Shown here: positions 1 to 64,000 of the stretch, piece by piece
How the letters are laid out: each line of letters begins with the position of its first letter
How positions within the stretch are numbered: the first letter of the stretch is position 1
Source of the DNA: Brachyhypopomus gauderio
Lineage: Eukaryota; Chordata; Actinopteri; Gymnotiformes; Hypopomidae
Length of the DNA: 64,000 bases
Assembly: GCF_052324685.1 (NCBI RefSeq)
Contig: NW_027507068.1
Location: 94,284 to 158,283, forward strand
Reading direction: 5' to 3'
Program-made: the position numbers and the translations under genes
The notes under the pieces: model-generated
What the model saw: the letters and a program-made list of their open reading frames with translations, nothing else
Database searches by the model: none
Told to the model about the DNA's origin: nothing

Positions 1-294
1 GTCTAAGCTTTGTTATGTTAAACCGAATACAGGGGACAACCCCAAAACTTGGTTGTTTTGCTGTGGTGCATAACTAACCCTAACCACGAGTTCAGGTGGT
101 TCACCTCTTTCCTTGAATTGTCCAAGAATTTAAAAGGAGGTGGATCACGTTTTCTGTAACTTGGCTAGAGTACAGGTGGCTCCTGACACTTCAAGTTTGG
201 GATGGACAAGAATGGGATATGGAGGCAGTTATGATTTTATAATAATTTATAAAATTTAATATATAATTTATATAAGCTTCTGCACGTCGATGGT
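1..294. other. Spacer with telomere-like motif, no gene seen
   Basis: I see no coding exon here. It holds an AACCCTAACC telomere-like motif around 76-85 (C-rich strand) and an AT-rich stretch at 230-280. The same sequence opens every unit. Confidence 0.5.
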
Positions 295-655
295 GGGGCA
301 GGGGTAGAGTCTTGGACCCCCACCCCAAAGTTGCTCCATCGGGTTAGGGTTTATATTTTTAAAAAGTCTTACACTAGTTTTTCACTATTGTCAAAGTGGT
401 ATGAATGGGTTTCAATGGGCGGGGCTCCTTGACTATTGCGCCCCCTGGTGGAGCTCCAACTCGGGGGTATATCTAGGGCCCTGGGGGGGGGGGGGGGGGT
501 AGGATGACGAGGGTTTGCTCTGCGGGGGTATGGTGCACCCCCTTGGGGCAGGGGTAGAGTCTGGGACCCCCACCCTAAAGTATCCATCTCAGGTTAGGGT
601 CCATATTATCAAGGGGTTTTACACTAGTGTCAAAGTGGTATCAATAAGATTCAAT
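295..655 (+). repeat. Diverged direct duplication flanking a G17 tract
   Basis: Block 295-416 and block 545-655 are diverged copies 250 bp apart. Both start ggggcaggggtagagtct, pass through cccccaccc and a ggttagggt motif, and end with acactag, tcaaagtggtat and ttcaat. Between them lies a run of 17 G (483-499) with G-quadruplex potential. The second block ends about 40 bp before the first exon of gene A. Copies in units 2-5 start at 14098, 27905, 41708 and 55513. Confidence 0.8.
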
Positions 656-699
656 TACTTTTATATTAGTCTGGTTAGTAAAATATTCTTTTTCAGGAT

Positions 700-830
700 A
701 TGGCACCTACACAAAGTGCGTGTCCGATATGTGCAGTTATTTACTGCAACTTATCACAGCACCTCCGGGTGTGTCACAAGGTGACAAATAAAGATGAAAT
801 GACGCTACTGCTGCAGCTCTCCAGTGGGAG
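700..830 (+). CDS. Gene A exon 1: first zinc finger
   Basis: Begins at an ATG four bases after a tttcag acceptor, so an upstream non-coding exon is possible. It encodes a CX2C-X9-HX4H finger (CPIC ... QHLRVCH), shorter between Cys and His pairs than a classical C2H2 finger. The exon ends in SSG plus two bases at a consensus GTAAGT donor (831). Gene B has a finger of the same spacing. Confidence 0.65.
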
Positions 831-1083
831 GTAAGTGAATAATTAGCATGTTAGCATGTTATTAGTGTGTTATTAGCATGTTAGTATTGTATTAGCATGT
901 TAGTGGGTTAGCAAGGTATTAGCATGCTAGCATATTGTTAGCATATTAGCATGTTGTTAGCATGTTACCATGTTAGCAATTAGCATGTAACTAATGTAAT
1001 TAGCATGCAATAAACATGCATTGAGCTAATAATGCTTATGTAATTAGCATGTTTTGCATCTTTTTGTGTAAAATTTTTTGCAG
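831..1083 (+). repeat. Gene A intron 1 with TAGCAT repeats
   Basis: Consensus GTAAGT donor and ttttttgcag acceptor. The intron holds 12 TAGCAT motifs between about 843 and 1052, mostly as ATTAGCATG or TTAGCATG, irregularly spaced. Gene B has no intron at this position although the flanking protein sequence is homologous. Copies lie at 14634-14886, 28441-28693, 42244-42496 and 56049-56301. Confidence 0.8.
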
Positions 1084-1180
1084 AGTGAAAGGCATTTTCG
1101 ATTGCAAGGTGCCGGACTGCAACTCCTCACACATCAAGCGCTTGGATAAGCACTACAATAAAATGCACCAGGATGTGTTG
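1084..1180 (+). CDS. Gene A exon 2: second zinc finger
   Basis: Reads in frame from exon 1 across the splice (SGR then VKGIFDC). It encodes CX4C-X10-HX4H: Cys-Lys-Val-Pro-Asp-Cys, then His-Tyr-Asn-Lys-Met-His. Gene B carries the matching finger CLPGC with RHLKSH. The exon ends at a GTATGT donor. Confidence 0.65.
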
Positions 1181-1270
1181 GTATGTTTAAAACCATCTGT
1201 TGTGTAGGACTGCATATTAGCTTATTAATATACGCATATTGCAATTTTTTCCCTTGTGTTTATTTTTTAG

Positions 1271-1838
1271 ATTGGGGACCTTGCCAAATTTACAAAGTTG
1301 TCGAAGGAGGAGTACATTTTAAGAAGCCTGGCCTCATTAAGGGCGAATGTTCCTAGGCCCCCGCTTGTTTCAACGCTGGATGGGGGTTACAGCCCACTTC
1401 CAGCATATTTATTACAAGGGTCTTTCACTGACATGTCCAGTGAATTGGACGAGGCCCCGGTCCCTTTTGAGCCAGAGCACATCGGTGAACCAGAGGCATG
1501 CTCCACCCCAGTTGCTGCGACATCCGTCCCTGGGCCCTCCACCTCTGTTGCTGTACACTCCACGGCAGACCCTGCGCCTTCCACCTCAGTGCCTAGGCCC
1601 TCATCCACCACCAAATGTGATGCTCGCTCATCCTGTAAGTTATCAAATCTGGAGGTACAAAGGTTAAAGAAGGCACTTGCGGAAGCTAGCCCCGGAGAAA
1701 AGTGTCAGAGGCCAAGCTGCAGGGCAAACTTTGAAAGGTTGGTGGACCTGGAGAAAGCCTTCAGGAATACACAGTCCCCCATACGGTCCAAACACAGCCT
1801 CAGCTCTCCGATTTCGAAAGAAATCCACCCTAACATCA
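1271..1838 (+). CDS. Gene A exon 3: Pro/Ser/Thr-rich linker
   Basis: Entered in frame from exon 2 through a ttttttag acceptor. It is about 189 codons. The first third (SKEEYILRSLASLR) is charged and probably helical. The middle is low complexity with repeated P-S-T-S-V; the end is basic. A GTAAGT inside the exon near 1635 could act as an alternative donor. The end joins exon 4 in phase (ATCA/GG), giving ...NIRRIVKEF. Confidence 0.6.
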
Positions 1839-1920
1839 GTAAGTAGTGTCATAAAGGTTGAGAGTTTGACCAAATTTTTTATGTATGATTCACTAATTAT
1901 GCTTAATATGTCTTCCCTAG

Positions 1921-2096
1921 GGCGCATTGTTAAGGAATTTACAATTGTAAATTCTGGTGCAAACCTGGAGGGGCGAAAAAAGGAGAACGCCATCTCGGCG
2001 GAAAATCACATTTTCCGTTTTGTCAACTTTAGTATGCGTGACATGCCAGAAAAGAAGGGGACATTCTCTTTCTTGCGAAACGGGGATAATTTTGGA
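1921..2096 (+). CDS. Gene A exon 4
   Basis: About 58 codons in frame with exon 3, ending SFLRNGDNFG at a GTAAGT donor. Content is basic then mixed with no motif I recognise. It closes in phase 0, while the next exon needs a two-base carry-over. This is the first apparent frame break in the gene. Confidence 0.55.
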
Positions 2097-2128
2097 GTAA
2101 GTAACGCATGTCATAGTGAAAGTTAACA

Positions 2129-2324
2129 TGCATACGAATGAGCAAATGTCTGCATATTAATAAGCTAATATCTGCATACTAATGAGGTGATATCAGCATA
2201 CTAATGAGCGAATACCCGCATATTGATGCGGCAATATCCGCATATTAATAAGCTAATATCCGCATACTAATGAGGAAATATCCGCATACTAAATAACTAA
2301 TACCCGCATATTAATGGACTAATG
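2129..2324 (+). repeat. 22-bp minisatellite in gene A intron 4
   Basis: Eight consecutive 21-22-bp repeats from 2150 to 2324, plus a degenerate copy at 2129-2149, all close to ccgcatactaatgagg followed by a short AT-rich end. Variants differ at a few sites (gcatattaat, gcatactaat). Similar gcatattaatgag motifs appear in intron 5 (2598-2705). Copies lie at 15932-16127, 29739-29934, 43542-43737 and 57347-57542. Confidence 0.85.
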
Positions 2325-2373
2325 CATAACAATGAGGAATTTTGCAAATATAACAAATTTGTTGTATTTGCAG

Positions 2374-2597
2374 ATACATGACTCACCTGAAGGGGAAGGG
2401 GCTGGCGGTCACCACTGTCAGAAATATCTTCCTTACCCTTCGCAAGTTCATTAAATATTTACATTGCCTTCCTATAATGGATGCAAGGATTACAAAAAAT
2501 GACATAGCTTGGTTGAACTTAGAAGTAAGCAAGCGACTCACAGGCCTGAAAAAAGAAGTAACAGTTCACCGACAAAAAGTGAAGAAACGCCTCAGCA
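2374..2597 (+). CDS. Gene A exon 5: core-binding-like segment
   Basis: After a tttgcag acceptor the plausible frame reads YMTHLKGKGLAVTTVRNIF, then LRKFIKYL. This pattern resembles the SAM-like DNA-binding domain of tyrosine recombinases (helix, then short turn, then repeated hydrophobic and basic residues). The frame is not the one delivered by exon 4; the delivered frame stops after about 26 codons. The exon ends at a GTAAGT donor. Confidence 0.55.
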
Positions 2598-2705
2598 GTA
2601 AGTGTAGAATAGCTCCATTAATGATGTGCATATTAATGAGGTGGTCTATGCATATTCATGCGTTGATATGCGCATATTAATGAGCCAGTGCATAATGTGT
2701 TTCAG

Positions 2706-2938
2706 AAAACAAAATCAGCAAAGAAGAAATCAGGTCCTTTCGAAAAAATGCCAGGAAGCTGATTCCTCTAAAACTGGGTAAGTCATTTGTTTGTGCATGC
2801 TAATGTATTTTGCTAATGTAACAATAATGCTAACGTTATGAATTTTGTGTCAATTTAGACCGTCTTGAGAAATACCCGAATACCATGACAGCGGCCCAAT
2901 TCATAGGCCTGCTATCAGGTTATCTTATCCTGAGTTAG
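2706..2938 (+). CDS. Gene A exons 6 and 7, ending before the missing catalytic segment
   Basis: Exon 6 (2706-2777) continues exon 5 in frame (KNKISKEEIRSFRKNARK). Exon 7 (2859-2938) continues in frame as MTAAQFIGLLSGYLILS and then hits TAG. By position MTAAQFIGLLSGYL aligns with LQRSFYGYVTAYL of gene B. In gene B this is followed at once by SSIYGHRTGVYQ with the first catalytic Arg; that part is absent here. Confidence 0.55.
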
Positions 2939-3200
2939 GGGTAGGGTTCATATCATGAAAGTGGCATTTTTCCATAGACATATGATGAAGATGCCTGATA
3001 TTATATACATGTCCCTGACCCTAACCTTTTCCCATAGGTTTTAGCATGGACGTGTCCATAATATATTATCAAAGTGTCTTGAATTAGGGGGCAGTGTTGA
3101 GCAATTTTCTTGGACGTTTTGCTAATATGCCTTAGTTTTTTCCTGATGCCAACTGTATGATACGATTATGTTTTTTCCCTAGGGTTAGGGTTAGGGTCAC
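2939..3200 (+). other. Foreign segment replacing catalytic box I/Lys exons, edged by TTAGGG-like tracts
   Basis: The segment begins beside gttaggggtagggtt (2934-2948) and ends in GGGTTAGGGTTAGGGT (3182-3197). An inverted-sense gaccctaacc lies near 3017-3026. No homology to gene B exons is visible inside it. The 3' tract follows a ccctag that could act as an acceptor for the next exon. Copies of the terminal tract lie at 16985-17000, 30792-30807, 44595-44610 and 58400-58415. Confidence 0.6.
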
Positions 3201-3410
3201 GCTTAAGTTTGCGTGACCAGACAAATATACCTGGATGAATCGGTTCATTACCCTCGCGAAGGATTTGCCTGGGGGTGGATCACCGTTCTTCTTCAACAGG
3301 AATGGAGGGCAGTGCAAAAAAACTATTAGTCCATTTCAGGATGGAGTGGACACGCTTGGGTTTTGGAGGATGCCAGTTTTAAGGCTTTCAGGACAGCAAT
3401 GGTGTGCCAC
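3201..3410 (+). CDS. Gene A exon 8: catalytic box II region, frameshifted
   Basis: The first part reads YTWMNRFITLAKDLPGG and FFFNRNGGQC, matching YGWLRAYVQIRKGLTGG and FLF of gene B. After A7 (3316-3322) the homologous frame switches: DASFKAFRTAMVCH matches KPKFTDLRSSIATH of gene B, placing the box II Arg at 3390-3392. A TGA upstream of YTW shows that the 5' edge is also damaged. The GTAAGT donor at 3411 has the same phase as in gene B. Confidence 0.55.
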
Positions 3411-3521
3411 GTAAGTATTATCCATATGTAATTACCATGGTATGAATATGTAATGAGGATGTTACGCCTATGTAATGAGCATATTATGCATATGTAATTT
3501 GCATGTTTTTCCCATTTTCAG

Positions 3522-3902
3522 ATCAAAAACATGCCTCCTGAACAAAAAAGAAAAATACAACGTGCCATGTGCCACTCAGATGTGGTGAGCTCTAAATTCT
3601 ACGTGCCTCTTAGCACAGTGGCAGAGGCTGTTGAGATAAGAGAGCTCCAGTCACAAGCCCTAGAAGAGAGCCCAGCAATGGGCGAGAGGCCAGAGCCTGC
3701 CAGGGAGAGCCCATCATCCTCCAGTCAGGTTGTGGCCAAAAAACGGTCAGCAAAGAGAAAAATTCGGTTCATTGACAGTAGTGAGGAGGAGGAGGATAAA
3801 ATACAGGAATATAATCCAAGAAACTACTCTCCCAAATCTATAAACTTTTCACATCATGACACCATTTCACTACCAATAGACAAATGGACTTCAGACCTTT
3901 AG
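3522..3902 (+). CDS. Gene A exon 9: catalytic His/Tyr and acidic tail
   Basis: Reads IKNMPPEQKRKIQRAMCH, then SDVVSSKFYVPL. His (3573-3575) and Tyr (3600-3602) are 9 residues apart, the spacing of the tyrosine-recombinase His/nucleophile pair. A Ser/Pro-rich stretch, a basic patch (KKRSAKRKIRF) and SSEEEED follow. The last 20 or so residues (LPIDKWTSDL) look LINE-derived because the same frame continues past the stop into LINE ORF2 sequence. Confidence 0.6.
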   Translation: MKNMPPEQKRKIQRAMCHSDVVSSKFYVPLSTVAEAVEIRELQSQALEESPAMGERPEPARESPSSSSQVVAKKRSAKRKIRFIDSSEEEEDKIQEYNPRNYSPKSINFSHHDTISLPIDKWTSDL

Positions 3903-4278
3903 GCTCAAACCTTTAAAATATCATCAAATTCTAACATACAGCTAATTCAATATAAAATATTACACAGAACACACATCACTATCGAGAAAATGCATCGGAT
4001 GGGCTTCACTGACTCCAACACTTGTACACACTGCCCCATGGTAACAGACAATCATCTTCACGCATTCTGGAACTGCCCCCCCTCTGTTTTGGTCGGAGGT
4101 CTTGGGAGAGCTGTCCAAGATCCTCCGCATCCCAATTTCTCCCACCTTAGCTCTGCTTGGTGACCTTTCCTCTCTACCAATGCCTAAACATCTGCAAACA
4201 TTCATCCTCATTTCTATAACAGTGGCTAAAAAGATTATTTTACTTAACTGGAAAGACAGAACATTATCAATAATATAG
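3834..4278 (+). mobile_element. LINE ORF2 C-terminal fragment (unit 1)
   Basis: One frame reads LIQYKILHRTHIT, MHRMGF and a cysteine/histidine knuckle CTHC-X7-H-X4-C, typical of the ORF2 C-terminus of L1/Tx1-like LINEs. A shifted frame then gives VLGELSKILRIPISP, LALLGDL and KKIILLNWKDR, also typical of these tails, ending at TAG 4276-4278. The fragment lacks reverse transcriptase and endonuclease. It abuts gene A upstream and Tc1 downstream. The clade assignment is from memory of family signatures. Confidence 0.75.
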
Positions 4279-5402
4279 TGCTGCATCAAGGCACCTCAGT
4301 GGGAAGTCTGTGGGAAGGAAAAAGTGTGGCAGAAAACGCTGCACGAGAGGAGGTGAGCGGACCCTGAGGAACATTGTGGAGAAGGGCAGATTCCAGACCT
4401 TGGGGGACTGCGGAAGCAGTGGACTGAGTCTGGAGTAGAAACATCCAGAGCCACCGTGCACAGGCGTGTGCAGGAAATGGGCTACAGGTGCCGCATTCTC
4501 CAGGTCAAGCCACTTTTGAACCAGAAACAGCGCCAGAATCGCCTGGCCTGGGCTACAGAGAAGCAGAACTGCAAATTTTGCATGTCATTTGGAAATCAAG
4601 GTGCCAGAGTCTGGAGGAAGACTGGGGAGAAGGAAATGCCAAAATGCCTGAAGTCCAGTGTCAAGTACCCACAGTCAGTGATGGTCTGGGGTGCCATGTC
4701 AGCTGCTGGTGTTGATCCACTGTTTTATCAAGGGCAGGGTCAATGCAGCTAGCTATGAGGAGATTTTGGAGCGCTTCATGCTTCCTTCTGCTGAAAAGCT
4801 TTATGAAGATGAAGATTTCATTTTTCAGCACGACCTGGCACATGCTCCCAGTGCCAAAACTATTGGTAAATGGTTAACTGACCATGGTATTACTGTGCTC
4901 AATTGGCCTGCCAACTCTCCTGACCTGAACCCCATAAAGAATCTGTGGGATATTGTGAAGAGAAAGCGGAGAGATGCAAGACCCAACACTCTAGATGAGC
5001 TTAAAGCCGCTATCTAAGCATCCTGGGTCTCCATAACACCTCAGCAGTGCCACAGGCTGATTGCCTCCATGCCACGCCGCATTGACGCAGTCATTTCTGC
5101 AAAAGGATTCCCAAACAAGTATTGAGTGCATAACTGAACATAATTATTTGAAGGTTGACTTTTTTGTATTAAAAACACTTTTCTTTTATTAGTCGGATGA
5201 AATTTGCTAATTTTTTTTGGTTGGGATTTTTGTTTTTTTTTTTACTTTTTTGCCAAAATCATCAATATTAAACCAATAAAAGGCTTGAACTACTTCAGTT
5301 GTGTGTAATGAATCTAAAACATAAGTCTAATATTTATCAGTACATTACATAAAATAATGAACTATCACAATATGCTAATTTTTTTTTAGAAGGACCTGTA
5401 TA
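4279..5402 (+). mobile_element. Tc1/mariner element, 5'-truncated, inactive (unit 1)
   Basis: Encodes pieces of a Tc1 transposase: ATVHRRVQEMGYRCR (second helix-turn-helix), then PQSVMVWGAM, then FQHDLAHAPSAKT and SPDLNPIKNLWD. The second catalytic Asp is present (HDLAHAP). The third catalytic position, 35 residues on, is Lys (NPIKN) where the family has Glu. The region between WATEKQN and KFCMSFG is shorter than in family members, removing the first Asp. A frameshift near 4730 and a TAA near 5015 break the frame. The 3' end keeps the terminal agaaggacctgta at a TA; the 5' inverted repeat is missing. Confidence 0.9.
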
Positions 5403-6223
5403 ATATTTATAATATTTCTGAGATTATTTTGTGGCATTTCCTGTCTATGTAGCAGTGCAAATTAATATATGTAAATATAATATATATAAATATAATATAT
5501 ATATATATATATTTCATAAAAGCCAAATCGCAGAAATAACATACATACAATGGCTATATTTGATTGTCTAAATATCTAGATACGGATAGAATATATATAT
5601 CATTTGTACTGATCGATTTTGTTTTTTACCTAATTTTAGATTACACTTGGACAGTATAAAAACTTCTAAATTTTAACCCAGAGACTGACTGACTATTCAA
5701 CCATTCATACATCTATTCATCCATCAGATATAAAGATATGGAAGTACAAGAGTATCGGTATGCGTGTCATTAGCACATTTTGTCATTAGTGTATTTATTA
5801 CTGGGTGGTGTGTGTGTGTGTAAAAGTATTGCAGCAGCGGTTTTATTACCCGTGTTATATCTGTAAATCGTGCATATGCTCACACTAACATGATGTGCAA
5901 GTATGTTACATTACAAAAATATAGGTACACAGATTGACTGGTTTGTAGCGAGGTGGATTCAAAATTTGTTTACTCTGCAGCACGATTCTGTGAATTTGCC
6001 ATCGCACTACACGTACCGCAAATGCATTGCAGCAGCACGTACGCCTACTACAAATACGTTTATTCTTTAGCGCGAAGATTAATTTCAAATCTTTAACGTG
6101 ACTCAATCCAAAGGATTCATTCCTATTCAGCATAAGAATAATTACCTTCACGCTATAAAGAAAGATAGATTCATGGGTTGTAACTTTTGAATTGCTTCTT
6201 GAAGCTGTGTCAAAAGTGCTATA
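5403..6223. other. AT-rich spacer with microsatellites
   Basis: No exon recognised. It contains an AT-rich microsatellite (about 5466-5514) and a short GT run (about 5808-5822). Open frames here are short and have no family features. Confidence 0.5.
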
Positions 6224-6228
6224 CAGAT

Positions 6229-6571: not shown

Positions 6572-6573
6572 CA

Positions 6574-6630
6574 GATGAGCTGGCCAAGCTGGTTTTCCTT
6601 GGAAAGGACAGTGGGGGTCAGCGCTTCAAA
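6574..6630 (+). pseudogene. Exon-like scrap interrupted by the solo LTR
   Basis: Nineteen codons (DELAKLVFLGKDSGGQRFK) end at a GTAAGC donor directly after the LTR and its target duplication. Removing the LTR joins this to LKLCQKCYT in frame, while the neighbouring frame reads LLLEAVSKVLY, so a frame break is likely here too. I do not recognise the gene. A distant resemblance to DUF4806-type segments is a weak guess. Confidence 0.3.
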
Positions 6631-6639
6631 GTAAGCATA

Positions 6640-7169
6640 AAATACGTATGAAACACATATAAAATGGGCTAGTCATTGTCTGGTTTGCCTTGCAAAAATC
6701 CTCATACTTTTTGCCATATTATTGCTTGACCTGCTGCCTCAGTGCTCATACTATTTTATTATTTACAACATTCCTTGTTAATTGTTAGAATTAGTACCTA
6801 TTATATATTTTTATACATTTTGGGATTTTGTCATGTAAAAAATCATAAAATCTATATTTTTTCCGCCGATCAAACTCCGCAGACAACCGGTGAAAAAGTG
6901 AAGACCCCCAAATTATTTTTCCCCATTAATATCTTATAAAAACCCATGAAAGAGTGAATTCGCAAAAGCTGAAGCGCGAAGTGGCACGGGATCACTGTAA
7001 CAATACAAAAAATAAAGTATGAACTAACCTACAACAGAGTGCAAAATAAATATTAAATTAAGAGCAACATTAAGATAATAACTACATTCAGAAGAAAATA
7101 TCAACTTAATTGTGGATTCAAAAAGAAAATGTGAGTGAGTGACCGTGCAAACTTGAATCACGTCCTTAG
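6640..7169. other. AT-rich spacer, nothing recognised
   Basis: No exon, inverted repeat or tandem repeat stands out. It includes position 7115, one of the two substitutions seen between units. Confidence 0.4.
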
Positions 7170-7457: not shown

Positions 7458-7869
7458 CTCAGAGTGCTATTAAGTTAGGTAGGGGGAGTGCCTTTGGTAG
7501 AAGCTTTGCTGTCTGCTTAACTTTGGCAAAGATGAGGTGGCAGTCTGCCATAGGTGTGCAACCCCATGATTGCCAAAGCAGTAGAAGCTTGGTATCCTCC
7601 TGAAAATTGTACGGAAGCTCTCCACTGTCTTGGACTTCAACCCAAGGCCACCCGGGGAGTTGCGTAATGCACGTGACATCCTTGGCCCTTGGTGTCAATC
7701 ACCTGGCAACGGGTGGTTGGGGCACAGGCTCTGGAGGCCCTATTCGGGGTTTCTATGACCTAGCTCCAGTAGCATGCTGGAGTATGCCCTCCTCATTTGG
7801 GGGCCCACAAGCTGCCTGGAAACCTGGCGGTGTTAACAGATGGCATGCTTGTGGTTTCTGTATGTCTAT
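7458..7869. other. GC-richer segment of unknown origin
   Basis: Overlapping open frames exist on both strands (about 60-95 codons), none with motifs or splice context I recognise. It may be a repeat fragment. It ends at the hAT-like element. Confidence 0.35.
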
Positions 7870-8812
7870 CAGGGTGTCTGCACATTTTTAAATCTCAAAT
7901 TCAATGACTTTTAAGACCTTTTTAATACCTCTCACAAAAAATAAATAATACCAGGGTTGCCAACTTTTCAAGATCGCTTGGAGTGAGATTTGAACCTGGA
8001 GGGGGTGGCGAGTGTAAATTGTTGGGGGGGGTGGCGACCGTAAGTTGTTGACGGGGGTGCACGACCTCGCGAAGCGACAGCACGCGGGGAGCTCGCGCAG
8101 GGCCGCACAGTAATTGCCACCGCGATTACGTCATTGTCAGTACGCGGAACCTCATGTATAAACCAAGCTTGATGCGGCTAAGGGATTACGGCACATGCAG
8201 CGCCGTGCGCAGTGCCCTAGTGCCTGTACATTTACATTGTAATGGTCCAATGAAGGTCATTTAAAAACCAGGACATTTCCTCACTTTTTTTTTTTCCAAA
8301 ACCGGGACAAGACGTGAAATACGTCCCGGGAAATACGGACGTTTGGTCGCCCTACACAGTAGACAAATCATTTTTGGCACTTACAGCTAAACTGCAAGAT
8401 ACATCGCGCCTCATACGAATCACTGGAAGGTTTCAGCTAGCCACAATATTTTTCATCCTCCAGCCACTTCACTGAATGGACATTTACCCATGTCTGCATC
8501 GGAGCCTTGTATTGTTGTTCCCGCCGCAGGCCTCAAATAAGAAAAGCAGCTTGCTGGCAGCTAAAGCATCGTCTGATGTTTCCACCTGTTAGGTGACGTA
8601 CTACTGCCATTAGGCGGAGTATACGGCCGTTGCGGAAATGATAATTATTGTGGGATATAGATTGGTAAAATAAAACAGAAAAACTGAGCAACACACTTAT
8701 TTAATGTCTCCCCCCCTAAAATTCCAGACATTTTAAGACATTTTTAGACCTTGAATATGTAAAACTAAATTTAAGACATTTTAAGACTTTTTAAGGACCC
8801 GCGGGTACCCTG
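7870..8812. mobile_element. Non-autonomous hAT-like element, outer (unit 1)
   Basis: The element begins CAGGGTGTCTGC and ends GCGGGTACCCTG. Both termini share CAGGGT, then subterminal taagac-rich sequence in opposite orientation (acttttaagacct near the 5' end; attttaagactttttaagg near the 3' end). GTCTAT flanks both ends directly (7864-7869, 8813-8818). hAT elements normally make 8-bp duplications, so this 6-bp match is imperfect support. No transposase is present. A second element is nested inside. Confidence 0.65.
7952..8355. mobile_element. Nested DNA-transposon-like repeat, inner (unit 1)
   Basis: It begins CAGGGTTGCCAAC and ends gtttggtcgccctac, whose reverse complement GTAGGGCGACCAAAC mirrors the start imperfectly. 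Both ends are familiar in fish repeats. It is GC-rich and CpG-rich compared with the AT-rich outer element. The outer element resumes after it. The exact right boundary is uncertain by a few bases. Confidence 0.5.
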
Positions 8813-8889: not shown

Positions 8890-9358
8890 ATATTTCACCA
8901 TGGAAGCCTGTCTTCTCTGCTATAAAGGCTTCGCCAATTTAAGCCAGCACCTCAGATTAAGTCATAATGTTAGAAATATCATGGAGCGGTCCCTCTTGCT
9001 CAAACTAGTGTCAGGGAGGGTAGATATTAGAAAAGAAAAATGCTGCCTACCAGGCTGTGGTCAGTCCACATCTAGATTGGACAGACACCTGAAGTCACAC
9101 AGGGAGCCGTCAAGCACCCGTAGAGCAGTCATTATACAGGAGGTCAAAAGAAATGTCGTGCTCAGACAAGTTGCCCTCGTGTCCGATTTAGACCTGAGGG
9201 AGAAAGAGGAGGAAGTGACCAGACTGGGTCATGTGGCAGAGGATGCCCCATGCTCTGAGGAGGAGGAGGAGGAGGAGGAGGCGGCGGCGGGGGCAGAATG
9301 CTCCAACTGCAACACTAAAAAAAACAGAAATCAAAAACCTGAAAGATGTTGGCTGTAA
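8890..9358 (+). CDS. Gene B exon 1: both zinc fingers and acidic linker
   Basis: ATG at 8900, ten bases after a ctttttcag acceptor. Finger 1 is CX2C-X9-HX4H (CLLC ... QHLRLSH). Finger 2 is CX4C-X9-HX3H (CCLPGC ... RHLKSH). Gene A has an intron between them, gene B does not. The exon ends in a run of eight Glu encoded by GAG repeats (9257-9280), then Ala, and a stop at 9356-9358. No consensus donor is obvious before the stop, so the 3' border is uncertain. Confidence 0.6.
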
Positions 9359-9448
9359 CAACAGAGCTCCAGCTGCTGAGGCGCAAAAAACCACCTTTTG
9401 CACAGGCGCCTCAAAAAGAAGTCTGTGCAGGCACACAGAGGGTTAAAG

Positions 9449-9459
9449 AGGGTTAGGGT
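9449..9459 (+). repeat. Telomere-like motif after gene B exon 1
   Basis: AGGGTTAGGGT lies in the stretch where the exon 1 reading frame is lost, preceded by a similar gagggttaaag. It is one of several GGTTAGGGT motifs in each unit. Confidence 0.5.
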
Positions 9460-9569
9460 GACGGCCCAAACCAAGCATAGTGTAAGCTGTCATAGAGCAT
9501 TTAAAGTTAACGTGACTGCTCTGGTGTGTATAAAGTATAATGTATTTTTCTTACAATCTGAACCTTAAG

Positions 9570-9939
9570 AAAAAGCAGCTGTGCAGGAGGCAGAGGCAGG
9601 GGCGGAGCAAGAGCAGGAGCTGGAGCAGCCTGCCCCCCCAAGAACCTCAATTTCCTGATCATGTGCCTCAGCTCAGTAAGTGCATTCAGGTGTGCTTTGG
9701 CTGAATTTTTTAAAGTACGTTTCCTTTGGTGGAAAATAAGTAATTCCTCATATCTCTTACGCTTTTAGATGAACTGCTGGAAGACTACCAGCACCACCAA
9801 GAGGGGTCTGACCCTTCATACAGACTACAAAATAATGTCAAGAGTAAGATATATCGCATAAAGCGGTTTATTGCTTACATGGCTGTGGGCCACAGCCACC
9901 TCCAGGAGTTCACCTTCTTGGACAACGTCACAAGGATTA
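9570..9939 (+). CDS. Gene B exons 2 and 3: linker and helical segment
   Basis: Exon 2 (9570-9675) follows a cttaag acceptor and ends at GTAAGT. One frame is Glu-rich and stops after TSIS; another frame reads QEPQFPDHVPQL and joins exon 3 in phase, with a C7 tract between them. Exon 3 (9769-9939) reads ELLEDYQHHQEG, then IYRIKRFIAYMAVG, similar to LRKFIKYL of gene A, and ends at GTGAGT. The next predicted exon stops after NGSKA. Confidence 0.5.
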
Positions 9940-10042
9940 GTGAGTATGGGACTATTCTTTACTCTAAAATTTTGTTTTAATGTTTAGATGTTTTGTGACT
10001 CATATGTACGTTTTCATGTTTTGCAGATGGGTCAAAAGCCTA

Positions 10043-10400
10043 ATGGGGAGAAGGTGGTGGCTAGCACACTATAGCCCATAAATTGGGCTACATTTTTAAT
10101 ACTTATAAGACACGCCACCCCCCACCTGCCGCCTGAAGCCCGTTTCCCTGATCAATATAACTAGGGAAATAAAGGGCATCATAAAAAACAAAGGCGATCC
10201 GTGGTAATACATGAAATTTAAGTAAAGGAGTGCAAAGATGGACACGCCATCTCCAAAGAGACGCTCCTGCAGTGTCGGGTAAAAGCCAAGCAGCAGATCC
10301 CTGAAATATTGAGTGAGTCCTGCATCATACCTCACTTTAATAACATTTTTTCTGCTGCACTTTACATCAGTCGATGTGTCTCATTCTTGTGTTTTTATTT
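10043..10400. other. Foreign segment between gene B exons
   Basis: This stretch has no counterpart to gene A exon 6 (IRSFRKNARK). It begins near a small perfect hairpin (TAGCCCA at 10072-10078, TGGGCTA at 10084-10090). Its minus strand holds an open frame (10096-10335) reading LTQYFRDLLLGFYPTLQERL, which I cannot assign. It could be an exon of another element or chance. Confidence 0.4.
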
Positions 10401-10410
10401 GTCAACACAG

Positions 10411-10580
10411 AGACCCTGGAGACCAAGCGATCTATAAAGCTTCAACGGTCATTTTACGGGTATGTAACGGCTTACCTGTCGTCTATATACGGCCACCGGA
10501 CTGGGGTCTACCAGAACCTGCAGGTGGAGGAAGTGATGAGAGCCAAACACAGTCCAGAGTTGGACGTGTACCTCATCAAT
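10411..10580 (+). CDS. Gene B catalytic exon: box I Arg
   Basis: Opens after a caacacag acceptor and reads FYGYVTAYLSSIYGHRTGVY, then NLQVEEV. GHRTGVxxxL matches the box I pattern R-x-G-E/V-x-x-x-L of tyrosine recombinases, with Arg at 10497-10499. It ends in phase 0 at GTGAGC. Confidence 0.7.
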
Positions 10581-10678
10581 GTGAGCGCACGTTCAGTTCA
10601 TAACATTGTGTTTTATACATACAGCATGGCAAAATGTGTCATTTCTTGTGTGTTTTGTCCTTTTGTCTTTCTAAACAG

Positions 10679-10899
10679 GTGGAGTCTCATAAAACAAATG
10701 AGACCTTTGGTGTGGCCCAGCTCCTCCTCACTGGGGAGGAGTACGGATGGCTTCGGGCTTATGTGCAAATTAGAAAAGGGCTGACTGGGGGCAAAATATC
10801 TAAATTTCTATTCTCTATTTCAACCCCAAATACATGGAGCAAATGAAGCTCCCAGGCAAACCCAAGTTCACAGATTTAAGAAGCTCCATTGCCACCCAT
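10679..10899 (+). CDS. Gene B catalytic exon: Lys and box II Arg, frameshifted
   Basis: It starts VESHKTNETFGVAQLLL, with Lys at 10691-10693 at the place of the beta-hairpin Lys. After KFLFS the original frame ends at TGA (10844-10846). A neighbouring frame carries MKLPGKPKFTDLRSSIATH with box II Arg (10879-10881) and joins the next exon in phase 0 at GTAAGT. A single small indel near 10815-10825 would account for this. Confidence 0.65.
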
Positions 10900-10982
10900 G
10901 TAAGTGTTTTTTTATAACAGAGGTGACTTGTCACTAACAATTATGTATTTTCCCAGTGGTCTGATTTTGTTTCCCTTCACAG

Positions 10983-11171
10983 GCAAGAAACGAACTGGAC
11001 CCTAAACAAAGGGAAATGATGTCACACTTTATGTGCCACAATACGGCCACCGCAAATAAGTTTTACGCCCTCAATTTAAATCCAGCCTGGTCAAACCTCC
11101 TCAGAGCTACCAGAAGCCCCAGCTTCTACAAACAAGAGAAAGAACAAAAGAAAACACCTGCGACCTTCTAA
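10983..11171 (+). CDS. Gene B catalytic exon: His and Tyr nucleophile
   Basis: Opens after ccttcacag and reads LDPKQREMMSHFMCH, then NTATANKFYALNLNP. His to Tyr is 9 residues (11037-11039, 11064-11066). The frame ends TPATF with a stop at 11169-11171. A neighbouring frame carries on as KRLALESSEEEMEVPF, matching the KRKIRFIDSSEEEED tail of gene A, so another small frame change is likely. Confidence 0.65.
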   Translation, partial: ARNELDPKQREMMSHFMCHNTATANKFYALNLNPAWSNLLRATRSPSFYKQEKEQKKTPATF

Positions 11172-11254
11172 AAGACTTGCGCTGGAGTCATCCGAGGAAG
11201 AAATGGAAGTTCCTTTTCAAGAAAGTGGTACTTCCTTTGAAGAGATATGCACTC

Positions 11255-11256
<2 letters not shown>

Positions 11257-11296
<40 letters not shown>
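11257..11296 (+). repeat. (CA)20 microsatellite (unit 1)
   Basis: Perfect dinucleotide run between the catalytic exon and the acidic tail exon of gene B. It is the only length-variable site I could find between units. Confidence 0.97.
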
Positions 11297-11301
<5 letters not shown>

Positions 11302-11332
11302 ATGTGCATGTATGTATTTGTGTTTTTTTCAG

Positions 11333-11485
11333 GACATTGAGGAGGATGAGGAGCAGGGGGACAAAGAAAAGAGCACATCACAATGTAAGACTTACAAGCT
11401 CACCAAGGCTTGTTTTGAGCAGACTTTCGCCACTCAAATTGAGAAAAGCATCCCCCAAAAGAATTGGAATACTTCATATGATTAA
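11333..11485 (+). CDS. Gene B acidic tail exon
   Basis: Opens after a ttttttcag acceptor with DIEEDEEQGDKEKSTSQ and ends NWNTSYD before TAA. The acidic content parallels the SSEEEED tail of gene A. If the preceding GTAAAATG (11297) is not used as donor, the CA tract would be read as a His-Thr run. Confidence 0.45.
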   Translation, partial: DIEEDEEQGDKEKSTSQCKTYKLTKACFEQTFATQIEKSIPQKNWNTSYD

Positions 11486-11648
11486 TCAAAGGGACAAAAA
11501 TGTAAGAACCCACAAAGCTGTTAAACGGTTATATAAAAAAGTGTTAATGTAGTGTTAAGTAGTATTTGAACTTGTTCATGTTTGTTTGTTTTAGCTTTTT
11601 AATGATAGTGTTGTGTTTATAGAGTTCAATTTTTCTAGTGTATATATA
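11486..11648. other. AT-rich 3' flank of gene B
   Basis: No gene recognised; possibly the 3' untranslated region of gene B. Confidence 0.35.
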
Positions 11649-11838
11649 TTTAAATTAGTGCTGTCAATTACAGGTGCCGCGATTAAAAGTACTCACCAGG
11701 ATTTAGCTCAAGCTTGCTAGATTTTCTAATTAGCAATCCAGGTAAAATTAGTGGAATCAACACAATCCAGGAAGCCTGAGCAAAATCCTGGTGAGGACTT
11801 TTAATTGCAGCACCTGGAATTGACAGCACTAATTTAAA
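11649..11838. mobile_element. 190-bp foldback/MITE-like inverted repeat (unit 1)
   Basis: Begins TTTAAATTAGTGCTGTCAAT and ends ATTGACAGCACTAATTTAAA, which are perfect reverse complements over 20 bp. Arms of about 55 bp match with few differences (caccaggattt and aaatcctggtg), and weaker symmetry runs to the centre. The whole element could fold on itself. No target duplication is clear, since the TTAA-rich termini blur the edges. Confidence 0.8.
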
Positions 11839-12393
11839 TTGTTCTTGTTTCTACCGTCTTATCATATCCATAGTGTTCTATTTTGCTAGTATGTATACAT
11901 TTAAATTGTTCTTGTTATTTTAATTTTGCATATTCAGTGTTTGTTCAACATATTTTAATCATGCTTTTTCATAATTCCATTTGTATTTTAAATTTTTAAT
12001 AAGATATTTTGTTTCACAATATGTTATATGTTGTTCCTTCTCCTTAAACCTTAATTTAAACCTCCTTTAGTTAAACCTCTTTAATTAAACATAAAATAAA
12101 ACAAAATCAAATCACAAAACATCCCACTTGCAATCTATTTGACTGATTGCAATAGATTGGAAGTGGGACGTAGGAAAATAAATATAATTAATAATATTAT
12201 ATAATATAATAATAATAAATATATTTTATGCTATGTAACCTTTAGTGTCACGCACCGTTATTATAATAAACTTAGGACTACGCCACCGTCAACTAGAGGA
12301 AAACCAATCAGTAACGTTTCACCCGCGCTATATTACTGCTGGCGAAAATAAAATTGTTAAAACTGCAGAGGCTGAGATGCAAATCATTTATTG
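11839..12393. other. AT-rich spacer with a 17-bp-arm hairpin
   Basis: The only structure is a hairpin at 12123-12167: arms CCCACTTGCAATCTATT and AATAGATTGGAAGTGGG pair at 16 of 17 positions around an 11-base loop. No gene seen. Hairpin copies lie at 25930-25974, 39733-39777 and 53538-53582. Confidence 0.6.
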
Positions 12394-12974: not shown

Positions 12975-13136
12975 ACATTTACATTTACGGCATTTAGCAG
13001 ACGCTCTTATCCAGAGCGACTTACAAACTGCTTTGCTTCTGATCACAGAATACATCCTAGGAAATAGTACAGATAGGCCAGAATTCAAGACACCATTGAG
13101 TCAGACTACTACTAAACTACAGGAGTCAGTATCATT
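12975..13136. repeat. Otophysan-type interspersed repeat (unit 1)
   Basis: Begins acatttacatttacggc and continues tttagcagacgctcttatcc, then agagcgacttaca. I recognise this as a very common repeat of otophysan fish genomes. It is split by the hAT MITE and probably resumes after 13397, but its right boundary is not clear. Confidence 0.7.
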
Positions 13137-13803: not shown

Positions 13804-14502
13804 GTCTAAGCTTTGTTATGTTAAACCGAATACAGGGGACAACCCCAAAACTTGGTTGTTTTGCTGTGGTGCATAACTAACCCTAACCACGAGTTCAGGT
13901 GGTTCACCTCTTTCCTTGAATTGTCCAAGAATTTAAAAGGAGGTGGATCACGTTTTCTGTAACTTGGCTAGAGTACAGGTGGCTCCTGACACTTCAAGTT
14001 TGGGATGGACAAGAATGGGATATGGAGGCAGTTATGATTTTATAATAATTTATAAAATTTAATATATAATTTATATAAGCTTCTGCACGTCGATGGTGGG
14101 GCAGGGGTAGAGTCTTGGACCCCCACCCCAAAGTTGCTCCATCGGGTTAGGGTTTATATTTTTAAAAAGTCTTACACTAGTTTTTCACTATTGTCAAAGT
14201 GGTATGAATGGGTTTCAATGGGCGGGGCTCCTTGACTATTGCGCCCCCTGGTGGAGCTCCAACTCGGGGGTATATCTAGGGCCCTGGGGGGGGGGGGGGG
14301 GGTAGGATGACGAGGGTTTGCTCTGCGGGGGTATGGTGCACCCCCTTGGGGCAGGGGTAGAGTCTGGGACCCCCACCCTAAAGTATCCATCTCAGGTTAG
14401 GGTCCATATTATCAAGGGGTTTTACACTAGTGTCAAAGTGGTATCAATAAGATTCAATTACTTTTATATTAGTCTGGTTAGTAAAATATTCTTTTTCAGG
14501 AT

Positions 14503-27195: not shown

Positions 27196-28309
27196 ACCTA
27201 GTGTTTGCAAGTTAGGCATTTGCCAAGAAGCACAAATAACCATAAACAGATTGTTTGCAGAGACCCCGCAAACAATCTCCTTGCCTTGTTTGAATAAGAC
27301 AAAGGAAGATTCCCAGGCTTCTACCATAAGTAGCAATTAAAAATAAATGTTAGTACTCCGTGTCAGTCACATCCAGTCTACTGTTGCTCCTCTCCTGATC
27401 AGAACACCAATCATACACATCTGTTATTATTCTTAACCAATTGTGTTAAGACATGTTCTTTATTCTGTATTTAACTACATGCATTATCATTACACTGGAA
27501 CTCTTTCCTGACACCTGGCCAGCACTGGATCACTGAGGGTAGAACAAAATTCTAATCCTGTTTATGAACCCTTATGAACAGTCTAGAGATGATTCCATTA
27601 AGACATGGGGGTCTAAGCTTTGTTATGTTAAACCGAATACAGGGGACAACCCCAAAACTTGGTTGTTTTGCTGTGGTGCATAACTAACCCTAACCACGAG
27701 TTCAGGTGGTTCACCTCTTTCCTTGAATTGTCCAAGAATTTAAAAGGAGGTGGATCACGTTTTCTGTAACTTGGCTAGAGTACAGGTGGCTCCTGACACT
27801 TCAAGTTTGGGATGGACAAGAATGGGATATGGAGGCAGTTATGATTTTATAATAATTTATAAAATTTAATATATAATTTATATAAGCTTCTGCACGTCGA
27901 TGGTGGGGCAGGGGTAGAGTCTTGGACCCCCACCCCAAAGTTGCTCCATCGGGTTAGGGTTTATATTTTTAAAAAGTCTTACACTAGTTTTTCACTATTG
28001 TCAAAGTGGTATGAATGGGTTTCAATGGGCGGGGCTCCTTGACTATTGCGCCCCCTGGTGGAGCTCCAACTCGGGGGTATATCTAGGGCCCTGGGGGGGG
28101 GGGGGGGGGTAGGATGACGAGGGTTTGCTCTGCGGGGGTATGGTGCACCCCCTTGGGGCAGGGGTAGAGTCTGGGACCCCCACCCTAAAGTATCCATCTC
28201 AGGTTAGGGTCCATATTATCAAGGGGTTTTACACTAGTGTCAAAGTGGTATCAATAAGATTCAATTACTTTTATATTAGTCTGGTTAGTAAAATATTCTT
28301 TTTCAGGAT

Positions 28310-54385: not shown

Positions 54386-54389
54386 CGAG

Positions 54390-54551: not shown

Positions 54552-54559
54552 ACCTAGTG

Positions 54560-58900: not shown

Positions 58901-59120
58901 CGAGAGGCCAGAGCCTGCCAGGGAGAGCCCATCATCCTCCAGTCAGGTTGTGGCCAAAAAACGGTCAGCAAAGAGAAAAATTCGGTTCATTGACAGTAGT
59001 GAGGAGGAGGAGGATAAAATACAGGAATATAATCCAAGAAACTACTCTCCCAAATCTATAAACTTTTCACATCATGACACCATTTCACTACCAATAGACA
59101 AATGGACTTCAGACCTTTAG
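55918..59120 (+). pseudogene. Gene A, unit 5
   Basis: Same exons and lesions as unit 1 at offset 55218. Catalytic His is at 58791-58793 and Tyr at 58818-58820. Confidence 0.68.
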
Positions 59121-59496
59121 GCTCAAACCTTTAAAATATCATCAAATTCTAACATACAGCTAATTCAATATAAAATATTACACAGAACACACATCACTAT
59201 CGAGAAAATGCATCGGATGGGCTTCACTGACTCCAACACTTGTACACACTGCCCCATGGTAACAGACAATCATCTTCACGCATTCTGGAACTGCCCCCCC
59301 TCTGTTTTGGTCGGAGGTCTTGGGAGAGCTGTCCAAGATCCTCCGCATCCCAATTTCTCCCACCTTAGCTCTGCTTGGTGACCTTTCCTCTCTACCAATG
59401 CCTAAACATCTGCAAACATTCATCCTCATTTCTATAACAGTGGCTAAAAAGATTATTTTACTTAACTGGAAAGACAGAACATTATCAATAATATAG
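59052..59496 (+). mobile_element. LINE ORF2 fragment, unit 5
   Basis: Copy of 3834-4278. Confidence 0.75.
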
Positions 59497-60620
59497 TGCT
59501 GCATCAAGGCACCTCAGTGGGAAGTCTGTGGGAAGGAAAAAGTGTGGCAGAAAACGCTGCACGAGAGGAGGTGAGCGGACCCTGAGGAACATTGTGGAGA
59601 AGGGCAGATTCCAGACCTTGGGGGACTGCGGAAGCAGTGGACTGAGTCTGGAGTAGAAACATCCAGAGCCACCGTGCACAGGCGTGTGCAGGAAATGGGC
59701 TACAGGTGCCGCATTCTCCAGGTCAAGCCACTTTTGAACCAGAAACAGCGCCAGAATCGCCTGGCCTGGGCTACAGAGAAGCAGAACTGCAAATTTTGCA
59801 TGTCATTTGGAAATCAAGGTGCCAGAGTCTGGAGGAAGACTGGGGAGAAGGAAATGCCAAAATGCCTGAAGTCCAGTGTCAAGTACCCACAGTCAGTGAT
59901 GGTCTGGGGTGCCATGTCAGCTGCTGGTGTTGATCCACTGTTTTATCAAGGGCAGGGTCAATGCAGCTAGCTATGAGGAGATTTTGGAGCGCTTCATGCT
60001 TCCTTCTGCTGAAAAGCTTTATGAAGATGAAGATTTCATTTTTCAGCACGACCTGGCACATGCTCCCAGTGCCAAAACTATTGGTAAATGGTTAACTGAC
60101 CATGGTATTACTGTGCTCAATTGGCCTGCCAACTCTCCTGACCTGAACCCCATAAAGAATCTGTGGGATATTGTGAAGAGAAAGCGGAGAGATGCAAGAC
60201 CCAACACTCTAGATGAGCTTAAAGCCGCTATCTAAGCATCCTGGGTCTCCATAACACCTCAGCAGTGCCACAGGCTGATTGCCTCCATGCCACGCCGCAT
60301 TGACGCAGTCATTTCTGCAAAAGGATTCCCAAACAAGTATTGAGTGCATAACTGAACATAATTATTTGAAGGTTGACTTTTTTGTATTAAAAACACTTTT
60401 CTTTTATTAGTCGGATGAAATTTGCTAATTTTTTTTGGTTGGGATTTTTGTTTTTTTTTTTACTTTTTTGCCAAAATCATCAATATTAAACCAATAAAAG
60501 GCTTGAACTACTTCAGTTGTGTGTAATGAATCTAAAACATAAGTCTAATATTTATCAGTACATTACATAAAATAATGAACTATCACAATATGCTAATTTT
60601 TTTTTAGAAGGACCTGTATA
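59497..60620 (+). mobile_element. Tc1/mariner remnant, unit 5
   Basis: Copy of 4279-5402. Confidence 0.9.
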
Positions 60621-61446
60621 ATATTTATAATATTTCTGAGATTATTTTGTGGCATTTCCTGTCTATGTAGCAGTGCAAATTAATATATGTAAATATAATA
60701 TATATAAATATAATATATATATATATATATTTCATAAAAGCCAAATCGCAGAAATAACATACATACAATGGCTATATTTGATTGTCTAAATATCTAGATA
60801 CGGATAGAATATATATATCATTTGTACTGATCGATTTTGTTTTTTACCTAATTTTAGATTACACTTGGACAGTATAAAAACTTCTAAATTTTAACCCAGA
60901 GACTGACTGACTATTCAACCATTCATACATCTATTCATCCATCAGATATAAAGATATGGAAGTACAAGAGTATCGGTATGCGTGTCATTAGCACATTTTG
61001 TCATTAGTGTATTTATTACTGGGTGGTGTGTGTGTGTGTAAAAGTATTGCAGCAGCGGTTTTATTACCCGTGTTATATCTGTAAATCGTGCATATGCTCA
61101 CACTAACATGATGTGCAAGTATGTTACATTACAAAAATATAGGTACACAGATTGACTGGTTTGTAGCGAGGTGGATTCAAAATTTGTTTACTCTGCAGCA
61201 CGATTCTGTGAATTTGCCATCGCACTACACGTACCGCAAATGCATTGCAGCAGCACGTACGCCTACTACAAATACGTTTATTCTTTAGCGCGAAGATTAA
61301 TTTCAAATCTTTAACGTGACTCAATCCAAAGGATTCATTCCTATTCAGCATAAGAATAATTACCTTCACGCTATAAAGAAAGATAGATTCATGGGTTGTA
61401 ACTTTTGAATTGCTTCTTGAAGCTGTGTCAAAAGTGCTATACAGAT

Positions 61447-61789
61447 TGTCACGGTGACAGCTCCGGACCCTTCCCTGTGGGCGTGCTGCTATGTTGTTTG
61501 CGTGTTATGTCCATGTTTGTTCTTCCGTGGGCGTGGGTCATCTGTGAGCGTGTTCGTGATATCACCTGTACCTTGTCTCGAGGTCACGTGGGTCTGTGTA
61601 AATTACCTATTTAATGTGCGTTTGCGCAGTGTCTTGTGCTCGTCTTTGTCTAAAGTTCATGCCTGTGTAAGCTTCCGCGTCAGCGTGCTTGCACCGTCTG
61701 TGCTGGGCTTTGTTTTTGTGTATTAAACGTTTTATGTGCATCGCAAGACGCTCGTCGTGTCTCCTCCTTCCTCCCGCATGCCAGCGTCA
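61447..61789 (+). mobile_element. Solo LTR, unit 5
   Basis: Copy of 6229-6571. Confidence 0.75.
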
Positions 61790-63087
61790 CAGATGAGCTG
61801 GCCAAGCTGGTTTTCCTTGGAAAGGACAGTGGGGGTCAGCGCTTCAAAGTAAGCATAAAATACGTATGAAACACATATAAAATGGGCTAGTCATTGTCTG
61901 GTTTGCCTTGCAAAAATCCTCATACTTTTTGCCATATTATTGCTTGACCTGCTGCCTCAGTGCTCATACTATTTTATTATTTACAACATTCCTTGTTAAT
62001 TGTTAGAATTAGTACCTATTATATATTTTTATACATTTTGGGATTTTGTCATGTAAAAAATCATAAAATCTATATTTTTTCCGCCGATCAAACTCCGCAG
62101 ACAACCGGTGAAAAAGTGAAGACCCCCAAATTATTTTTCCCCATTAATATCTTATAAAAACCCATGAAAGAGTGAATTCGCAAAAGCTGAAGCGCGAAGT
62201 GGCACGGGATCACTGTAACAATACAAAAAATAAAGTATGAACTAACCTACAACAGAGTGCAAAATAAATATTAAATTAAGAGCAACATTAAGATAATAAC
62301 TACATTCAGAAGAAAATATCAACTTAATTGTGCATTCAAAAAGAAAATGTGAGTGAGTGACCGTGCAAACTTGAATCACGTCCTTAGCAACAGTTTTCTG
62401 GGTGACAGTACGTTGAACGAATCAGAATGAACGAGAGCCCTCAGTTCAGTGAACGAATCACTGAGCATGCGCTGTTCCCTCGCAATGGATGTCTTCGCGG
62501 GTGATTCAGTGATTCATGGACCACACAGCAGTTCCTCAGCCAGCCTGCACGGTCGCTGCTGAGCTCAACTACTGAACTGAAAAAGGAACAAGCAGCTGAG
62601 GAAGTGATTCAATTCAGTTTGTTCACTCAAATGATTCCTTCATTTGAAGAATTGTTCACGAATGACACAACACTACTCAGAGTGCTATTAAGTTAGGTAG
62701 GGGGAGTGCCTTTGGTAGAAGCTTTGCTGTCTGCTTAACTTTGGCAAAGATGAGGTGGCAGTCTGCCATAGGTGTGCAACCCCATGATTGCCAAAGCAGT
62801 AGAAGCTTGGTATCCTCCTGAAAATTGTACGGAAGCTCTCCACTGTCTTGGACTTCAACCCAAGGCCACCCGGGGAGTTGCGTAATGCACGTGACATCCT
62901 TGGCCCTTGGTGTCAATCACCTGGCAACGGGTGGTTGGGGCACAGGCTCTGGAGGCCCTATTCGGGGTTTCTATGACCTAGCTCCAGTAGCATGCTGGAG
63001 TATGCCCTCCTCATTTGGGGGCCCACAAGCTGCCTGGAAACCTGGCGGTGTTAACAGATGGCATGCTTGTGGTTTCTGTATGTCTAT

Positions 63088-64000
63088 CAGGGTGTCTGCA
63101 CATTTTTAAATCTCAAATTCAATGACTTTTAAGACCTTTTTAATACCTCTCACAAAAAATAAATAATACCAGGGTTGCCAACTTTTCAAGATCGCTTGGA
63201 GTGAGATTTGAACCTGGAGGGGGTGGCGAGTGTAAATTGTTGGGGGGGGTGGCGACCGTAAGTTGTTGACGGGGGTGCACGACCTCGCGAAGCGACAGCA
63301 CGCGGGGAGCTCGCGCAGGGCCGCACAGTAATTGCCACCGCGATTACGTCATTGTCAGTACGCGGAACCTCATGTATAAACCAAGCTTGATGCGGCTAAG
63401 GGATTACGGCACATGCAGCGCCGTGCGCAGTGCCCTAGTGCCTGTACATTTACATTGTAATGGTCCAATGAAGGTCATTTAAAAACCAGGACATTTCCTC
63501 ACTTTTTTTTTTTCCAAAACCGGGACAAGACGTGAAATACGTCCCGGGAAATACGGACGTTTGGTCGCCCTACACAGTAGACAAATCATTTTTGGCACTT
63601 ACAGCTAAACTGCAAGATACATCGCGCCTCATACGAATCACTGGAAGGTTTCAGCTAGCCACAATATTTTTCATCCTCCAGCCACTTCACTGAATGGACA
63701 TTTACCCATGTCTGCATCGGAGCCTTGTATTGTTGTTCCCGCCGCAGGCCTCAAATAAGAAAAGCAGCTTGCTGGCAGCTAAAGCATCGTCTGATGTTTC
63801 CACCTGTTAGGTGACGTACTACTGCCATTAGGCGGAGTATACGGCCGTTGCGGAAATGATAATTATTGTGGGATATAGATTGGTAAAATAAAACAGAAAA
63901 ACTGAGCAACACACTTATTTAATGTCTCCCCCCCTAAAATTCCAGACATTTTAAGACATTTTTAGACCTTGAATATGTAAAACTAAATTTAAGACATTTT
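63088..64000. mobile_element. hAT-like element, unit 5, cut by window end
   Basis: Copy of 7870-8782; the inner element is at 63170-63573 and the right terminus lies beyond the window. Confidence 0.65.

Follow-up and report, generated by a model that had tools for sequence, protein, structure and literature searches.

The beginnings of macrosatellites are rarely seen, because homogenisation wipes out their first steps and assemblies lose their edges. Among the closest described systems, the human TSPY array has a 20.4-kb gene-bearing tandem unit in tens of copies; in the account given in the relevant part of PMC3924835, the reference assembles the array edges only, and changes in copy number are ascribed to unequal sister-chromatid exchange. 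Other large human tandem arrays, some named for genes, include the macrosatellites TAF11-Like, SST1, PRR20 and ZAV, as treated in part of PMC3018141. The subject here is an array with a 13.8-kb unit which fills the 64,000-nt stretch of DNA analysed (the window), C224:94284-158283, that is, the last 64 kb, at the 3′ end, of a 158,283-bp contig in an assembly of 796.5 Mb and 840 contigs. Like TSPY, as far as that part of PMC3924835 describes it, the array has a large gene-bearing tandem unit; unlike TSPY, which is protein-coding and Y-linked, its loci are broken, and it is anchored to a 16.2-Mb record. Copy-number variation and expression have been measured for the human macrosatellites (again in the part of PMC3018141 concerned with them), and the 13.8-kb array is described from its sequence; compared with the arrays described there, its founder junction and founder mosaic are directly readable.

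The array is real and recent and belongs to an ordinary class, the macrosatellites, but its birth is documented with unusual completeness: the two edges, the initial junction, the genes from which the unit derives and a tract of conversion are all legible side by side, and another contig (C6) carries a sister array, a further example within this gene family. What a first duplication looks like, and whether array edges record age, become directly testable questions. The array is likely to have arisen from a cluster of paralogous tyrosine-recombinase-like genes by tandem duplication, shortening, amplification and homogenisation. Literature on fish macrosatellites, tandem arrays and the gene family yielded no description of it in the titles and abstract openings of the matches listed, which is weak evidence of absence.

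The first-pass annotation of the window had claimed at least 4.6 near-identical tandem copies with a period of 13803-13807 bp, and this is borne out both by 25-mer distances and by alignment of the pieces. The array occupies 1..64000 (+ strand) as 4.64 head-to-tail units, starting at 1, 13804, 27611, 41414 and 55219 in an arbitrary phase, with lengths of 13803, 13807, 13803 and 13805 bp and the fifth unit cut at unit position 8782. A 25-mer with 2-19 occurrences in the window returns after 13803, 13805 or 13807 bp and at no other successive distance, apart from 25 at 27610. Aligned, the five pieces differ by two substitutions in 64 kb, at unit positions 7115 (copy 1) and 7145 (copy 2), and every difference in unit length is accounted for by a single CA microsatellite (11257..11296, + strand; 20, 22, 20 and 21 copies in successive units).

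Beyond the window, out of view of the first reading, C826 (23.5 kb) and C724 (32.7 kb) consist of array units too, as do the initial 68,465 bp of the 16.2-Mb contig C19, in one orientation throughout; with 72.0 kb on C224 and 68.5 kb on C19, the assembled total is 196.7 kb. Both of its ends sit on contigs with non-array flank, the left on C224 and the right on C19. Exons of the two broken genes in the unit (loci 1 and 2, below) were used to count copies, the genome-wide figures being lower bounds: the array holds 15 of at least 27 matches to locus-2 exon 4 (10 of the 15 on the two anchored contigs), 15 of at least 28 to locus-2 exon 1 (one partial), and 14 of at least 23 to locus-1 exon d. As expected of a macrosatellite, there are kilobase-scale head-to-tail units in many copies (13.8 kb, the four contigs together carrying 15 assembled locus-2 copies).

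The founder duplication junction lies at 295..300 (+ strand) and recurs at 14098, 27905, 41708 and 55513. It consists of a 6-bp microhomology, GGGGCA, common to the unit, the left edge (C224:68062) and the right edge (ending at C19:68465). The unit reads GATGGT-GGGGCA-GGGGTAGAG, the left edge CCCCTC-GGGGCA-GGGGTAGAG and the right edge GATGGT-GGGGCA-TGTAAGTGG; the unit therefore fuses right-edge to left-edge sequence at the common GGGGCA, which is the mark of a tandem duplication. The chance of six or more shared bases at the breakpoints is estimated at 0.1-0.2%. The junction coincides with the first base of a ~240-bp satellite, while the opposite breakpoint is not satellite.

The right-hand end of the array is at C19:68465, equivalent to unit position 300. 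On the left, the transition is spread out: 99.9% unit sequence begins at C224:86267 (unit 5793), and farther left come unit 2934-4589 at C224:81930-83604 (95.9%), unit 2198-2931 (79%) and, leftmost, unit 295-3124 at C224:68062-70876 (95%), with smaller pieces in between. Unit 4590-5792 is replaced there by other sequence (C224:83604-86267), by eye a LINE with reverse-transcriptase words. This long left-edge arrangement spans ~26.5 kb (68062-94577), and the chimeric unit is about half as long.

The left flank also holds the probable sources of the unit. Searched by tblastn with the exons, it contains gene A (C224:68473-70671), gene B (C224:71857-82796, interrupted) and a locus 2, all on the + strand. 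Locus 1 of the unit (1084..3899, + strand) is a broken gene of the same family, present in all five window units, with inferred exons at ~1084-1180, 1271-1838, 1921-2096, 2374-2597, 2706-2777, 2859-2918, 3221-3410 and 3522-3899. Compared in 50-bp steps, it is nearly always identical to gene A over 601-2350, again A-like at 2701-2900 (199/200), and 96-100% B-like beyond 2951. By this comparison locus 1 is evidently a chimera of the flanking genes A (to ~2940) and B (after ~2950). The A-like part is broken by a tract at 2351..2700 (+ strand) which matches a paralogue on C92 at 345/350 positions and gene A at 304/341. The C92 paralogue is also close at 2101-2350, as is gene A, and is 83-85% identical over two long aligned pieces. 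The tract can be read as ectopic gene conversion, for which either direction would fit.

A third and older family member, gene C, would have contributed the other side of the junction. A remnant of its exon g lies at 85..156 (+ strand; E 1.3e-5), and a remnant of exon h just past the array at C19:68557 (18 residues, E 0.002), both from searches of a few kb. Since the two remnants flank the right breakpoint, the duplication probably split gene C between exons g and h, and the right flank accordingly looks like the unduplicated continuation.

To compare copies, 17 whole or partial units were aligned, leaving out the final 3.5 kb of C826. In 15 of them (all except the two right-edge units on C19) there are nine variable substitution columns, some beside contig ends, and any two of eight complete interior copies show on average 1.43 substitutions (28 pairs), or 1.0e-4 per site. 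At a substitution rate of 1e-8 per site and generation this corresponds to roughly 5,000 generations, a figure that may be too low as a result of polishing. Against the other complete units, the last two on C19 show 30-32 substitutions, and they have in common insertions of ~255, 30 and 20 bp at 6745, 9165 and 9888; their substitutions are patchy, mostly at 6-8 and 9-10 kb, as conversion leaves them. The units show the pattern of concerted evolution that marks a macrosatellite, near-identical in the interior and diverged at the edge. CA lengths across the array run from 16 to 22, and there are both shared and private variants. A G-run at 8023 is short in all eight informative copies on C224 and C826 and long in six of seven on C724 and C19; this split by contig suggests that exchange is commoner between near copies. 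The annotation's further proposal, that the mosaic was assembled once and recently amplified or homogenised, is well supported by the nine variable columns in 15 copies and by a founder junction and mosaic readable from edges and flanks.

Locus 2 (8890..11485, + strand) is present in four of the five window units, the fifth being cut before it, and has inferred exons at ~8890-9358, 9769-9939, 10027-10312 (decayed), 10411-10580, 10679-10899, 10983-11257 and 11333-11485. It aligns with locus 1 over 96 columns (28% identity, E 5e-12), and most inferred exons of both loci have AG/GT borders: the two are broken paralogues of one multi-exon family. Two gene-like loci per unit had been reported from the first reading of the sequence, and they do stand, both on the + strand, with the qualification that they are broken relatives of each other, accompanied by a piece of a third member. 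Locus 2 has an early stop with a frame change in exon 1 and further frameshifts, and locus 1 has one frameshift and one missing exon, so that the unit would be expected to give no intact gene product. In a relative on C359, an open frame of 328 residues runs across the equivalent exons and the intervening introns; by comparison with it unit 10066-10214, which might be taken for an insertion, is decayed exon sequence.

A profile of the family aligned with four phage integrases (two cut at the end) at E 2.2e-4, probability 45% and score 36.8. The G-R, K, L/I-R, H and Y blocks align with those of the integrases, the first H of the R-K-(H)-R-H-Y signature being T, and lambda R212, K235 and R311 are invariant in the four integrases. 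None of 100 shuffles of the family reached this score (maximum 21.4); one of 100 integrase shuffles did (an outlier at 135.6), and reversed integrases gave 18.1. Pfam scans, which covered 20 of the unit's 70 stop-to-stop frames of 60 residues or more (whole or in part) and the joined exons, gave no match above cut-off for the family (best DUF1104, E 0.016; for one exon Phage_int_SAM_5, E 0.14), and a PDB search with the locus proteins gave no significant match. No relatives of locus 2 were found in viral contigs (exon 1) or in bacterial or archaeal genomes or plasmids (exon 4). A KMT5A-like label, under which a fish gene family is often annotated, was dropped: a literature search gave no paper that pairs it with tyrosine recombinases, and the scanned pieces have no SET domain. 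The family may be described as tyrosine-recombinase-like, a likeness and not a proven membership. In the part of PMC3212892 that concerns animal genomes, Crypton transposons and Crypton-derived genes encode tyrosine-recombinase-type proteins and are often decayed or domesticated; compared with the Cryptons described there, the present family is intron-rich and in local clusters, and is likened to them by description, not by sequence.

These features can be arranged in four steps. The starting point would be a same-strand cluster of A, B (of the locus-1 type), locus 2 and C, an order seen in the flanks. A segment from just 5′ of A into C would then have been duplicated in tandem and joined at GGGGCA, where the junction is still visible; the repair route was perhaps template switching or microhomology end joining. 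Next, one copy would have shrunk from the ~26.5-kb arrangement to the 13.8-kb chimeric unit, as A recombined with B and conversion took place with a C92-like paralogue; these products can be read in the unit, though they may have formed in another order or direction. Lastly, unequal crossing-over and conversion probably raised the unit to its at least 10, and probably 13-15, copies, homogenising the interior; odd copies remain at both edges.

An alternative to the stepwise part of this scheme is a single burst, in which the units came all together from the copying and insertion of a 13.8-kb circle or re-replication intermediate, and not step by step through unequal crossing-over. The near-identity of the interior copies would be expected of such an event, yet it seems unlikely in view of the longer arrangement at the left edge and the two diverged units at the right. 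The 7145 A variant, moreover, occurs together with a CA length of 22 in one C224 unit and one C19 unit, as if by exchange. The 7115 G variant also occurs twice; it may reflect exchange between units too, or else two haplotypes of one unit, C826 being possibly the other haplotype. The array might also have been stretched by the assembler from a few true copies through looping in the repeat. Contigs do break within it, and the indels at contig ends point to imperfect polishing; but this is scarcely credible for an array with two anchored edges, four contigs, CA lengths of 16-22 and both shared and private variants, particularly when a second array lies on C6 within a 34.5-Mb record.

The nature of the family raises two further possibilities. 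The array might have been built by site-specific recombination at the junction satellite, through the tyrosine recombinase of the family itself or of a relative at another genomic site, as could be argued from the alignment with tyrosine recombinases, from the position of the junction at the satellite's first base, and from the existence of two arrays in one family. That the second breakpoint is not satellite, that just 6 bp are in common and that both loci of the unit are broken make this very improbable. A broader proposal is that this recombinase-derived vertebrate family is prone to form arrays, at least two of its members having become macrosatellites separately in one genome, with recombinase activity or a target-like 5′ satellite seeding the first duplication; this, too, is improbable. 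An array of ribosomal DNA or other RNA genes is ruled out, the unit having no Rfam RNA gene at gathering score and no tRNA.

Several observations weigh against stepwise tandem duplication and homogenisation at one locus. The contigs terminate within the array, so that a single continuous locus is something we infer. C826 may represent the second haplotype of the beginning of C224, since its second unit equals window unit 1 without difference along 11,355 bp and its successive CA lengths, 22 and 20, are those of the first two C224 units; alternatively, it may lie after C224. C724 could likewise be a haplotype. Setting C826 aside leaves 13 copies, and setting C724 aside as well leaves 10, on the two anchored contigs; the copy number is at least 10 and probably 13-15. 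Single-base indels and small insertions crowd in C19:1-12349 and C724:1-4726, which suggests poorly polished contig ends in an error-prone long-read assembly, and polishing could also have removed true differences between copies. The 8023 state is a G-run length, the least reliable kind of variant, and the match of 18 residues at E 0.002 makes the exon h remnant a weak one.

The C6 array is a second near-identical tandem array of the same gene family. Ten relatives of locus 2 are spread over C6:28737585-28812445, one every 8111-8140 bp. Within a 9-kb piece the sequence recurs after 8118 bp with 99.9% identity over 882 bp, and DNA from the other end of the array agrees with this piece at 99.4-99.8%. 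The 9-kb piece is 73% identical to window locus 2 over 2.4 kb and 89% to unit 7458-7869; otherwise it has just two short stretches in common with the 13.8-kb unit. Among the telomeric places listed, a block of telomeric repeats starts at C6:28696993, directly behind a run of N in the 34.5-Mb record, 8 kb from a gene of the locus-1 type and some 40-115 kb from the C6 array; these repeats represent either a mis-joined chromosome end or an interstitial telomere.

Part of the ~240-bp satellite lies in the unit at 295..655 (+ strand), and it recurs in arrays on C37, C212, C92, C48, C247 and C30. The satellite stands at the 5′ side of locus-1-type genes; its separate arrays on several contigs have similar spacing. 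On C212 it lies 8.7 kb from a contig end that is pure TTAGGG; six further contig ends were checked for satellite context, of which three (C37, C30 and C247) are non-telomeric and the other three (C92, C48 and C384) are N. A subtelomeric home for the family is suggested. The B-chromosome, sex-chromosome and pericentromeric settings that the first-pass annotation had raised are neither supported nor refuted, the array being anchored to a 16.2-Mb record and relatives of its parts lying close to telomeric sequence on C6 and C212. Other repeats occupy the distal ends of C224 and C19, the C224 end having TTAGGG 23 times within longer monomers, not as a telomere. By eye, one satellite is common to the end of C19 (L037) and the start of C247 (L052), and is a candidate centromeric repeat. 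At the C30 end (L049 1-110), Rfam recognises a 5.8S ribosomal RNA gene with 87.7 bits, and a ribosomal DNA array probably starts at this end; the ~240-bp satellite has copies ~13 kb away.

The remainder of the unit includes decayed transposons, which had been noted from the letters alone and are confirmed in each unit, as a Tc1-type transposase and LINE pieces. A megablast search of unit DNA against phages gave no match. The Tc1-type transposase pseudogene lies at 4357..5017 (+ strand; Pfam HTH_Tnp_Tc3_2, 7.1e-10, and DDE_3, 5.9e-12), next to a LINE fragment at 3903..4275 (+ strand), in which zf-RVT matches 3903-4160 below the Pfam cut-off (E 2.6e-4) and the remainder is recognised by eye. In a search of one unit, the only Rfam match at gathering score was a UnaL2 LINE 3′ element (12984..13037, − strand; 69.7 bits, gathering 55), the other matches all lying below theirs; the unit has no tRNA. 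UnaL2 is known from eel and other fish genomes, and the host animal is probably a fish. Finally, window 11648-11839 is an inverted-repeat element with 76-nt arms (89%) and a 97% partial copy in the right flank (L019 1942-2119), which looks like a small non-autonomous transposon.

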